From the NCBI RefSeq assembly GCF_003611635.1, contig NZ_RAVZ01000004.1, positions 1 to 64,000 on the forward strand: a stretch of DNA of 64,000 nucleotides, given 5' to 3'. Made by a program: the position numbers and the translations under genes. Positions 10,414 to 16,015 of the stretch are shown piece by piece. Below the pieces are notes generated by a model. The model was not told the DNA's origin. It made no database searches and saw only the letters and a program-made list of their open reading frames with translations. Source of the DNA: Corallococcus terminator. Lineage in GTDB: Bacteria; Myxococcota; Myxococcia; Myxococcales; Myxococcaceae. Every line of letters starts with the position of its first letter. The stretch's first letter is position 1.

Positions 10414-10854
10414 CTAACGGCGCGGCGAGCGACGCGACGGGCTCTTGCGAGCACCCGCGCGGGTGTTCTTCCGAGCCGTCGTGCCGCGCTTCGCGGTCGT
10501 CTTGCGCGCGGTGCGACCCGCGGCGGCGCGACGGACCGGCGACTTGCGGGCCCCACGCTTGGCGGTGGCGCGCTTCGCCGTTCCGCGCTTCGCGGTGGCG
10601 CGCTTGGCGGTCCCACGCTTGCCCGCGGCCTTCTTCGCGGAGGGACGCTTGCCGGCCGCCTTCTTCGCGGACGTGCGCTTCGTGGTCGCACGCTTCGCGG
10701 CCCCCGTGCTGCGGCGGGGCGCGGCCTTGCGCGCGCTCTTGCGCTTCCCAGAGGCACGGCGGCGCGACGGCGTGGCGGACTCACCGACCGGCATCACGGT
10801 GTTGGACAGCGACGGGAACTCGTTCGGGTCCTGCGCGTTCGTTTCGGTGTTCAT
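10414..10854 (-). CDS. Histone H1-like Lys/Arg/Ala-rich DNA-binding protein
   Basis: This 146-residue protein has a short acidic/neutral N-terminal part (1-30, NTETNAQDPNEFPSL) and then ~115 residues made of near-tandem AKRATAKRG-, AKKAAGKR- and ARKTTAKRG-type units. The composition matches eukaryotic H1 tails and the histone-like KAKA-repeat proteins of myxobacteria. It very likely binds DNA non-specifically and affects nucleoid packing. The ATG at 10854 has GGAGG 7 nt upstream; an ORF extends 51 codons further without coding character. The repeats make the gene prone to unequal recombination, and a fragment of its 3' end lies at 8750-8870. Confidence 0.85.
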   Translation of the reverse strand: MNTETNAQDPNEFPSLSNTVMPVGESATPSRRRASGKRKSARKAAPRRSTGAAKRATTKRTSAKKAAGKRPSAKKAAGKRGTAKRATAKRGTAKRATAKRGARKSPVRRAAAGRTARKTTAKRGTTARKNTRAGARKSPSRRSPRR

Positions 10855-11014
10855 CAACAGCCTCCAGGTTCGAAAACACCTGGAGGGTACGCGCAACCGC
10901 ATGAAGTCAACCCATGCGCCCCCATGCAGATGCACGCCATCCAACGAATGCTCGCGTGACAGCCATCGCGCGAGGCCGAAAATCCGGCCCCGGCGCGCAC
11001 GGGTCAACGCTTCG

Positions 11015-12849: not shown

Positions 12850-13677
12850 TCACACGGGGACGGCGAACTCCCGCAGGGCCGCGTTCAGGCTCGTCTTCTG
12901 GTCGGTGGACGCCTTGCGCTGCCCGATGATGAGCGCACACGGGACCATGTACTTCCCGGCGGGGAACTCCTTCTCCCGCATCCCGGGAATCACCACGCTC
13001 CGGGCCGGAACGCGCCCCTTGTAGACGCGCTCCTCGGGACCGGTGACGTCGATGATCTGCGTGGAGGCCGTCAGCACCACGTTGGCGCCCAGCACCGCTT
13101 CCTCCTCCACCACCACCCCCTCCACCACGATGGAGCGGCTGCCCAGGAAGGCCCCGTCCTCGATGATGACCGGCGTCGCGGAAGGCGGCTCCAGCACGCC
13201 GCCCAGCCCCACGCCGCCCGAAAGGTGGACGTGGCGGCCCACCTGCGCGCAGGAGCCCACCGTGGCCCAGGTGTCCACCATGGTGCCCGCGCCGACCCGG
13301 GCCCCGATGTTCACGTAGCCCGGCATCACCACCGCGCCCCGCTCCACGAAGGCGCCGTAGCGCACCGTGCCCGGCGGCACCACGCGCACGCCCGCGGCCT
13401 CCAGGCCCTTCTTCAGCGGCACCTTGTCGTAGAACTCGAAGGGGCCCACCTCCATCACCCGCATCTCCGACACCGCGAAGAACAGGAGGATGGCCTCCTT
13501 CACCCAGGCGTTCACCCGCCAGCCTTCAGGGCCCTTCTCCGCGACGCGCAATTCGCCGGCATCCAGCAGCGCCAGCGTTTCGCGCACCGCCGCCACGGTG
13601 TCCGCGTCCTTCAGCTTCGTGCGGTCCGCGAAGGCCGCGGACACCCTCTGGGAGAGGTCTTCGATGGAGGTGGCCAT
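12850..13677 (-). CDS. dapD: 2,3,4,5-tetrahydropyridine-2,6-dicarboxylate N-succinyltransferase
   Basis: The 275-residue enzyme transfers succinyl from succinyl-CoA to tetrahydrodipicolinate, two steps before DapE in the succinylase branch of lysine/diaminopimelate synthesis. Hexapeptide-repeat left-handed beta-helix turns are obvious from ~100 to 240 (GAFVERGAVVMPGYVNIGARVG, then GSCAQVGRHVHLSGG). The C-terminal VPCALIIGQRKASTDQKTSLN is a family hallmark. The length is normal. The start is the ATG at 13677 (MATSIEDL). It is co-oriented with the cupin gene and dapE. Confidence 0.93.
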   Translation of the reverse strand: MATSIEDLSQRVSAAFADRTKLKDADTVAAVRETLALLDAGELRVAEKGPEGWRVNAWVKEAILLFFAVSEMRVMEVGPFEFYDKVPLKKGLEAAGVRVVPPGTVRYGAFVERGAVVMPGYVNIGARVGAGTMVDTWATVGSCAQVGRHVHLSGGVGLGGVLEPPSATPVIIEDGAFLGSRSIVVEGVVVEEEAVLGANVVLTASTQIIDVTGPEERVYKGRVPARSVVIPGMREKEFPAGKYMVPCALIIGQRKASTDQKTSLNAALREFAVPV

Positions 13678-13755
13678 GGGCCCGGGTTGAATCACACTTC
13701 AGCTTTTCGCGCCGCACCCGAGTGGCTTTCGTCCACCCCCGCCGGAAGCCCGGCC

Positions 13756-14061
13756 TCAGACGTGCGAAGCCCCCGGAATCAGGGCCAGCGGCAGGGTCTG
13801 GGTCGGGATTTCCCCGTGAAACATGGGGTCCGCCTTCGTCAGCGGGCCGGTGCCCTCGCGCAGGAGGACGGCGCCCTGGAGCACCCGTCCCACGGCGGAC
13901 AGGGGCACTTCCTTCCAGTGCCGGTTGAAGGGTGAGCGCCGGACATAGAGGTGCTCCTGACCGATGAGCGCCACGTAACCCAGCAGGGTCCCATCCGCGG
14001 CGCGCACGCGCATGCCGCTGATGATGGAGCGTCGTTCGAACGGCGTGTCGTCGAAAGCCAT
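13756..14061 (-). CDS. Small conserved-looking protein of unknown function
   Basis: This 101-residue acidic-to-neutral protein starts MAFDDTPFERRS. The middle (GMRVRAADGTLLGYVALIGQEHLYVR) resembles the two-stranded start of PRC-barrel/DUF2171-type domains, which carry a strand-turn-strand reading 'x-V-x-x-x-D-G-x-x-L-G-x-V'. There is no signal peptide or membrane span. It lies between dapD and the selenoprotein gene on the same strand. The PRC-barrel idea is a resemblance only. Confidence 0.55.
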   Translation of the reverse strand: MAFDDTPFERRSIISGMRVRAADGTLLGYVALIGQEHLYVRRSPFNRHWKEVPLSAVGRVLQGAVLLREGTGPLTKADPMFHGEIPTQTLPLALIPGASHV

Positions 14062-14182: not shown

Positions 14183-14419
14183 CTACGGACCCACGGCCTT
14201 CGCCACCGCGTCCACCACCTCCTGGTCGGTGGGGAATGCCAGACCCGCCTTGCGGATGACGACCCGGCCGTTCACGGCGACTTCATAGATGCCCGAAGAG
14301 CCCTTCTTCAGCTCTGCTTCCAACTCCAGCTCTTCCTTCAGCGCGGCCGCCGCACGGGCGGCCCTGGGGGCGTAGCCTCAAGCCGTGCAGTAGGTGATGG
14401 TCACCGTCGTCTGGGACAT
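14183..14419 (-). CDS. SelW/Rdx-type selenoprotein with in-frame UGA (Sec14)
   Basis: Read from the ATG at 14419 (AGGAGG 6 nt upstream) the frame gives MSQTTVTITYCTA, then TGA at 14378-14380, then continues uninterrupted for 64 codons to TAG at 14183-14185. Taking the TGA as selenocysteine yields a 78-residue Rdx/SelW protein: the redox motif C-T-A-U-G-Y-A-P (residues 11-18) matches the SelW CxxU-G-Y signature. It is followed by the typical helix (RAARAAAALKEELELEAEL), the IYEVAVNGRVVIRK beta-strands and the FPTDQEVVDAV helix. It is a small thioredoxin-fold thiol redox protein, presumably cytoplasmic. A GC-rich hairpin with SECIS geometry lies just after the UGA. A simple nonsense mutation is unlikely because the 3' part is intact and the motif position is exact. 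Confidence 0.85.
14345..14363 (-). promoter_or_regulatory. Candidate bacterial SECIS element
   Basis: On the transcribed (minus) strand, 14 nt after the UGA, lies GGCCGCC-CGUGC-GGCGGCC: a perfect 7-bp stem with a 5-nt loop. The loop begins 21 nt after the UGA and has G as its second base followed by U. Known bacterial SECIS elements sit in this distance window and carry a G in the first loop positions. It is within the coding sequence, as expected in bacteria. Confidence 0.7.
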
Positions 14420-14557: not shown

Positions 14558-16015
14558 ATGACGACCGTTTTTGCGCCCTTGGAAGCCGCCTACGACCCGG
14601 AGGCCTTCCGGACCACCGCCCACACCCTGATGGACCAGCTCGCGGACTACCTGAAGGCCGCGCTGAAGGGGGGCGCGATGCCGGTGCTGCCTTGGGCCCC
14701 GCCTTCCGTGAACCAGGAGCGCTTCGCCACGCCCTTCCCGGAGGAGCCTCCCGCCGAACTGGCCCCGGCCTTCGCGAACCTCATGGCCCGCGTGCTGGAG
14801 GGCTCCCACCACCTGCACCACCCCCGCTACGTGGGCCACCAGGTGACGGCGCCGCTGCCGCTGGCGGCCCTGTGCGACGCCGTGTCGTCGCTGCTCAACA
14901 ACGGCATGGCCGTGTACGAGATGGGCCCGGTGGCCACCGCGATGGAACACCACGTGCTCGCGTGGATGGCCTCCAAGCTGGGCCTGCCGGAGGGCGCCCG
15001 GGGCGTGCTCACCTCCGGCGGCAGCGCGGGCAACCTCACCGCGCTGCTCGCCGCGCGCCAGGCGAAGGCCGGCTTCGATGCGTGGAACGGCGGCGCGCAT
15101 GCGGGCCCGCCCCTGACGGTGCTCGTTCCCCGCTCCGCCCACTACTGCCTGGCCCGGGCGGTCCGCATCATGGGCTGGGGCGAAGGCGGCCTCACACCGG
15201 TGGACGTGGACGCGTCCTTCCGCGTGCGGCCGGACGCGCTGGAGGGCGCGCTCCAGGAGGCCCTGAAGCAGGGGCGCAAGCCCATCGCGGTGGTGGCCAG
15301 CGCGGGCTCCACCGCCACCGGCGCCTTCGACCCGCTGGAGCCGGTGGCGGACTTCGCCGAAGAGCATGGCCTGTGGTTCCACGTGGACGGCGCACACGGG
15401 GCCGCCGCCAGCCTGAGCCCGAAGTACCGCGCGCAGGTGAAGGGCATCGAACGGGCGGACTCCGTGGTCTGGGACGCGCACAAGGGCCTGCTCATGCCCG
15501 CGCTGGTGACGGCGGTGCTCTTCCGCGACGGGGCGCGCTCCTTCGACGCCTTCTCCCAGGAGGCCCACTACCTCTTCCACGGCGACGACCCGCGCCCCTA
15601 CAGCGACGTGGGCCTGCGCACCCTGGAGTGCACCAAGGAGATGATGCCCCTCAAGGTGTACGCGTGCCTGTCCGTGCTGGGCACCCGCGTCTTCGAGGAG
15701 GCCGTCACCGCGTCCTACGACCAGGCCCGGCGGTTCGCGGCCATGCTCGCGGCCACCCCGGACTTCCAGGTGGCGCTGCCCCCGGACTGCAACATCGTCT
15801 GCTTCCGCCACACGCCCGCGCACGTGCCGAAGGAAGGCTGGGATGCCCTCCAGGCCCGCCTGCGGGAGGCGCTGGTCACCGGGGGAAATTTCTACCTGGT
15901 GCAGACGCGGCTGCCGGACGGGGTGTACCTGCGCACCACCCTCATCCACCCCCTCACCGGGGATGGGGACCTGGAGGCGCTCCTGGAGGCCCTCCGTCGG
16001 GCGGCGGGACCCTGA
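14558..16015 (+). CDS. PLP-dependent group II amino-acid decarboxylase
   Basis: This 485-residue enzyme of the aromatic-L-amino-acid/glutamate/diaminobutyrate decarboxylase superfamily has the main PLP-site features. These are GGSAGNLTALLAAR (phosphate region, ~150), the ring-stacking His in PRSAHYC (~193), HVDGAHGAAAS (Asp to the pyridine N, ~277), and WDAHKGLL with the Schiff-base Lys (~309). Substrate cannot be fixed from sequence; the HHLHHPRYVGHQV and CTKEMMPLK segments suit the diaminobutyrate/tyrosine-decarboxylase branch. It removes the alpha-carboxyl to give an amine and CO2 in the cytoplasm. It is followed 56 nt later by a glycosyltransferase gene, with no obvious functional link. 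Confidence 0.88.
   Translation: MTTVFAPLEAAYDPEAFRTTAHTLMDQLADYLKAALKGGAMPVLPWAPPSVNQERFATPFPEEPPAELAPAFANLMARVLEGSHHLHHPRYVGHQVTAPLPLAALCDAVSSLLNNGMAVYEMGPVATAMEHHVLAWMASKLGLPEGARGVLTSGGSAGNLTALLAARQAKAGFDAWNGGAHAGPPLTVLVPRSAHYCLARAVRIMGWGEGGLTPVDVDASFRVRPDALEGALQEALKQGRKPIAVVASAGSTATGAFDPLEPVADFAEEHGLWFHVDGAHGAAASLSPKYRAQVKGIERADSVVWDAHKGLLMPALVTAVLFRDGARSFDAFSQEAHYLFHGDDPRPYSDVGLRTLECTKEMMPLKVYACLSVLGTRVFEEAVTASYDQARRFAAMLAATPDFQVALPPDCNIVCFRHTPAHVPKEGWDALQARLREALVTGGNFYLVQTRLPDGVYLRTTLIHPLTGDGDLEALLEALRRAAGP

Follow-up and report, generated by a model that had tools for sequence, protein, structure and literature searches.

A very probable SelW-like selenoprotein gene with an in-frame UGA in Corallococcus terminator

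Introduction

Is a short reading frame of Corallococcus terminator, in which a TGA falls inside a redox motif, a selenoprotein gene or the remains of a broken one? The frame lies in a window of 64,000 nucleotides, the whole stretch of DNA that was analyzed. Genes of this kind are frequently cut short or overlooked in annotation (PMC13188914), and in 20 test genomes the annotation was correct for 195 of 298 known selenoprotein genes (PMC12013277). Among the known selenoprotein families of bacteria are the SelW-like CxxU proteins, as PMC13188914 also states; they were already in the 2006 list (passages of PMC1794560), and with 427 sequences they were the most abundant selenoprotein family in marine data (passages of PMC2398784). 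For myxobacteria, Table 3 of PMC1794560 lists 11 selenoproteins of Anaeromyxobacter dehalogenans, SelW not among them. The part of the matches covered in a literature search held nothing on point for selenoproteins in myxobacteria or Corallococcus, and the portion of PMC9312934 covered has no mention of myxobacteria under the term searched. The survey of many genomes in PMC5029168 may already list these genera in its Supplementary Table S2. The family of the gene described here is thus known, while the literature searched yielded no report of it from this lineage; a first report is not claimed.

Results and Discussion

The gene, its family and its predicted fold

The following features were found on the minus strand.

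14183..14419, minus: SelW-like (Rdx) selenoprotein gene; ATG at 14419, TAG stop at 14185-14183, 78 residues
14380-14378, minus: in-frame TGA taken as the Sec codon, U14 of C11-T-A-U14-G-Y
14431-14426, minus: Shine-Dalgarno AGGAGG, a perfect match 6 nt 5' of the selW ATG

With the TGA read as Sec, the 79-codon frame from 14419 to 14183 translates as MSQTTVTITYCTA-U-GYAPRAARAAAALKEELELEAELKKGSSGIYEVAVNGRVVIRKAGLAFPTDQEVVDAVAKAVGP and ends at the TAG. There are 13 sense codons before the TGA and 64 after it, and the TGA occupies the second redox position of the CTAU-GY motif. The preliminary description, made from the sequence alone, had located the gene correctly at 14183-14419 and had omitted its strand, which is minus; the plus-strand reading of the same positions gives no sensible product. 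Its other statements about the frame hold on the minus strand: the TGA at the U of a C-x-x-U-G-Y motif, the 13 codons ahead of it, and the perfect AGGAGG before the ATG. Purine-rich sites resembling AGGAGG also lie upstream of selW in many relatives.

The claim that the 64 codons after the TGA encode an intact Rdx/SelW protein was borne out by two family models, both above their cut-offs. The product matches Pfam Rdx (PF10262) over nearly the whole model (49.1 bits, cut-off 22.6, E 6.8e-13) and NCBIfam TIGR02174 CXXU_selWTH nearly end to end (46.6 bits, cut-off 34.2). Membership in the narrower NCBI family SelTWH_Campy (NF041051) is not claimed, the score being 60.9 bits against a curated cut-off of 88. 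An AlphaFold2 model, built on an alignment of 47 sequences (the window and 46 of 61 prepared references), has a mean pLDDT of 82.4 and runs in the order strand-helix-strand-strand-strand-helix, which is the thioredoxin-like beta-alpha-beta-beta-beta-alpha fold of SelW. In the model, C11-T-A-U14 sits between the strand at 6-10 and the helix at 16-31, as the SelW family requires. Foldseek returned 22 PDB matches at E<=0.001, all of them from 3dex, 2ojl, 2obk, 2fa8, 2oka, 2p0g and 2ljk, 3dex having an E of 3.8e-06; mouse SelW (2npb) matched at E 4.5e-03 with a TM of 0.65. By their PDB titles, 2fa8 and 2p0g are SelW-related and 2obk is a putative Se-binding protein. Searching with the sequence of the product likewise brought up 2ljk and 3dex. 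With the known SelW-like (SELENOW-like) prokaryotic selenoproteins of PF10262 / TIGR02174 the gene shares the Rdx fold, the CxxU motif, the small single domain, and a UGA with a close downstream hairpin. It differs from them in its host, the GC-rich myxobacterium Corallococcus.

Selenocysteine machinery

The preliminary description implied that the organism has selenocysteine machinery. The genome that holds the window (10.35 Mb, 99.99% complete) was searched, and selA, selB, selC and selD are all present in it. By the presence of these four genes, the genome has the bacterial Sec-decoding trait. For tRNA-Sec (selC) there is one strong match (70.5 bits, gathering 47), identified by ARAGORN as tRNA-SeC (anticodon tca); of the further matches one scores 47.6 bits, just above the cut-off, and five are weaker. 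selA and selD score 559.6 and 395.5 bits, respectively. The selB product (323.1 bits, cut-off 242.25) carries the SelB-wing_2 and SelB-wing_3 domains, which are both of the SECIS-binding winged helices. The absence of selB or selC, which had been named as grounds for doubt, is not the case here.

Conservation of the UGA among relatives

PF10262 was searched in 144 genomes including that of the window, which are akin to one another and thus not independent. In 78 of the 144 genomes there was a match, 79 matches in all, and 77 of the 79 have one in-frame TGA at the redox site. The remaining two carry the Cys form, with TGC at the UGA site: one is in G092 and the other is the second, tandem copy in G036. 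In G036 (L062) the tandem Cys and Sec SelW-like copies lie about 370 bases apart. Named genomes were scanned with a 17-sequence alignment as the query, which gave 65 loci; TGA stands at the site in 64 of the 65, and TGC in one, that of Bryobacterales F-183 (L177). An alignment with SelW homologues had been proposed as a check on the gene, and the site is indeed Sec (TGA) or Cys (TGC) throughout the relatives and the named loci. The named loci come from myxobacteria, Acidobacteria, Planctomycetota, Bacillus and relatives, Desulfobulbaceae, Rhizobiales, and others. Among them, the locus of Corallococcus praedator is the closest to the selW of the window (97% over 64 residues). One record, L116 (BNCN01000005.1), is titled Comamonas sp. 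KCTC 72670 and has a Myxococcus-type locus; it is probably misnamed.

Among the same 144 genomes, selA is present in 124 (122 above the cut-off). It occurs in 75 of the 77 genomes with a TGA-type SelW versus 49 of the 67 others (Fisher p 2e-5, a rough guide given the relatedness of the genomes). Both TGA-SelW genomes that lack selA are incomplete, at 87% and 80%. G092, whose sole Rdx copy is the Cys form, is also without selA. In its gene (L021) a hairpin with the loop GGTCT follows the Cys codon at -8.6 kcal/mol; this may be a vestige left by a change from Sec to Cys.

The hairpin after the UGA

A 7-bp stem with a GU-containing loop, 14 nt past the UGA, had been described, and the description is exact.

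14345..14363, minus: bacterial SECIS-type hairpin; stem GGCCGCC/GGCGGCC at 14363-14357 / 14351-14345, loop CGTGC at 14356-14352

The stem starts 14 nt and the loop 21 nt after the UGA, and the loop is CGUGC in the transcript. The SECIS of the E. coli fdhF type has a loop of the GGUCU type, from which the loop of the window differs; a GGTCT loop is carried by the distant relatives L022-L024 and L026. The bSECIS rule, as worded in the Figure 2 legend of PMC13188914, specifies a loop of 3-9 nt, a stem of 4-16 bp, a G in the first two loop positions, a distance of 16-37 nt from the UGA, and an MFE <= -7.5. The hairpin of the window lies within all of these limits (7 bp, CGTGC, 21 nt, -14.5 kcal/mol), as do those of 66 of the 79 Rdx genes. 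The 13 genes outside the rule in its strict, unbroken-stem version are 12 of the 77 TGA genes and the Cys copy in G036, and they count against the element.

Is this hairpin merely a by-product of an Ala/Arg-rich helix in a GC-rich genome, with Sec inserted via some other signal? When the peptide of the window was recoded synonymously at local codon usage, the exact 7-bp stem arose in 10.9% of the recodings and some 7-bp stem in 43%. As a control, six neighbouring genes were scanned, and hairpins within the generic bSECIS rules followed 439 of 2393 codon places (18%), 23 of the 2393 at <= -14.5 kcal/mol. Both results are what a by-product would predict, and the hairpin of the window taken alone is weak to modest evidence for a SECIS. 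Across the relatives, however, the hairpin is far beyond chance. All seven stem pairs are present in 62 of the 79 Rdx genes; counted over 69 distinct segments, they are complete in 53, versus 5.6 expected from synonymous recoding (about 9-fold). In these 69 segments 93.2% of the cells are paired, while structures slid along the alignment pair in 23-71%. Cells with a double change number 28 versus 5.6 in shuffles, none of 500 shuffles being as high, and four of the seven pairs are changed on both sides. Moreover, the distant relatives L022-L024 and L093 have an altered stem sequence and retain the place of the loop. A by-product is highly improbable in the face of these figures, and I take the hairpin to be a SECIS-type element of the gene.

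Two further observations concern the same segment. In 60 of the 79 genes the loop has the rare CGT as its Arg codon, versus 6 of 148 Arg codons further downstream, which speaks for the element. Against it, the folding energy over all relatives lies barely under the level of synonymously recoded sequences (mean z -0.49). A lower hairpin including the UGA (columns 1-7/11-17) was tried and rejected; 72.7% of its cells pair, with one double-change pair, and it is unformed in the predicted fold of the window.

Loss of selW within the genus

The neighbourhood of selW is as follows.

13756..14061, minus: 101-aa ORF of unknown family, adjoining selW on the same strand; retained where selW is lost
14558..16015, plus: PLP-dependent decarboxylase gene, divergent from selW; conserved flank
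12850..13695, minus: dapD-like gene (tetrahydrodipicolinate N-succinyltransferase); conserved flank

Elsewhere in the window, at 10414-11007 on the minus strand, there is a 197-aa frame rich in AKR/AKK repeats that looks histone H1-like by eye.

Within the genus, selW is present in 12 of 16 genomes, that of the window included. The four selW-less congeners (G001, G004, G005, and G011) have all retained the decarboxylase gene, the 101-aa ORF and dapD at the locus. Three of the four hold no trace of selW. The fourth, G005, has a 5' stub (L183, about 1320-1380, minus) that runs from the start to the TGA plus a few codons, about 18 codons around the TGA, the rest being deleted. Loss of selW is the simpler reading because the decarboxylase gene lies close to selW in 18 of the 65 named loci too, including those of Myxococcus and Pyxidicoccus. 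Absent in 4 of the 16 genomes, selW is dispensable.

Does this mean that selW is also decaying in the genome at hand, its TGA a true stop and its 3' part a relic? The four absences and the stub of G005 would fit such a decay. Nevertheless, a TGA at this site followed by an unbroken 3' frame is found in the 77 genes and in 64 of the 65 named loci, over several phyla, and the hairpin covaries. The dN/dS after the UGA was obtained in 12 comparisons with the gene of the window: it is 0.09-0.32 against the five nearest congeners, 0.49-0.70 against five less close ones, and 0.28 against two genes of another genus. The low values against the five nearest congeners also speak against decay and, as far as sequence comparison can tell, there is purifying selection after the UGA in those comparisons; the higher values against the less close congeners weigh the other way. 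A decayed 3' part was among the points raised against the gene beforehand; here it is intact, and the congeners attest loss elsewhere, not decay here. Decay of the selW of the window is thus extremely improbable, and the frame is better read as an intact gene.

A second candidate, and the missing Sec-FdhA and Sec-SelD

Outside the window, PF02627 has four matches in the same genome, one of them with an in-frame TGA. The second candidate selenoprotein is the following.

L112:668-1330, contig C12, minus: AhpD-like peroxidase-related candidate selenoprotein, 220 residues, NACVF-U-LGSH = CxxU

A hairpin with a GGTC loop lies downstream of its TGA. The candidate has the same CxxU arrangement as the AhpD-like (COG2128) selenoproteins and is a peroxidase-related CMD protein; the AhpD-like family is known from passages of PMC1794560 and PMC2398784. 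When the protein was sought in 59 genomes including that of the window, all 21 matches had a TGA, one of them (G029) having two, and the TGA-containing gene was found in all 16 genomes of the genus. The four selW-less congeners all keep both selA and the AhpD-like gene. Thus, congeners without SelW still keep selA because an AhpD-like TGA gene is retained.

These data also bear on whether the UGA might be read as Cys or Trp by a near-cognate or suppressor tRNA and not as Sec. I found no point in support of such readthrough. The presence of tRNA-Sec, selA, selB and selD, the conserved bacterial-SECIS-type hairpin downstream, and a second, unrelated CxxU gene that has its own GGUC-loop hairpin and keeps its TGA in 16 of 16 genomes of the genus all argue against it, so that its probability is very small. 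Reading of the UGA as Sec is preferred.

Other selenoproteins were sought in the same genome. Its SelD (L018) has a Cys in CAGCAAK, which I take to be the Sec site. For a Sec formate dehydrogenase, none of three molybdopterin-family matches (L098-L100) has a TGA in the matched frame, and L100 reads as NuoG-like by eye. Likewise, none of 18 peroxiredoxin matches (PF00578, AhpC-TSA) has a TGA. At least two selenoproteins is a lower bound for this genome, since the search covered Rdx, PF02627, SelD, the molybdopterin family and PF00578, with DsbA, Trx, Grx, MsrA, GPx, HesB, UGSC and further families outside its scope. According to the portion of PMC1794560 (2006) concerned, FdhA or SelD was in every bacterial selenoproteome; the present genome looks like an exception to that generalization. 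It may be that Corallococcus keeps its Sec machinery without Sec-FdhA or Sec-SelD, the AhpD-like selenoprotein (16 of 16 genomes) maintaining the trait and SelW being an accessory that is readily lost (present in 12 of 16), a proposal to which I give even chances.

Proposed working of the gene

The frame at 14419-14183 on the minus strand can be regarded with near certainty as a genuine SelW-like selenoprotein gene, because the Rdx match, the machinery, the conserved TGA and the covarying hairpin all point to it, and it is very probably functional. The interpretation of the preliminary description is supported and was right in nearly every detail. I infer Sec insertion, the selenylsulfide chemistry and the physiological role as follows. 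The ribosome would start at the ATG behind AGGAGG. SelA and SelD would make Sec-tRNA-Sec on SelC, and SelB would deliver it to the UGA at codon 14. Binding of SelB to the hairpin just past the UGA would lead to Sec insertion and to the full 78-residue protein, while under selenium scarcity the product may end after 13 residues. The full product would be a small thioredoxin-like (Rdx) protein whose CxxU forms a reversible selenylsulfide, possibly with a thiol or peroxide redox role.

Significance

The selW assignment corrects a gene that would be hidden by stop-codon rules, under which the UGA is read as a stop. Selenoproteins are very probably made by Corallococcus, Myxococcus and soil bacteria related to them. 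The genome is offered as a case against the view that the Sec trait is kept only where Sec-FdhA or Sec-SelD is present. Because some congeners have SelW at this conserved locus and others lack it, the genus is also a natural experiment in selenoprotein loss.
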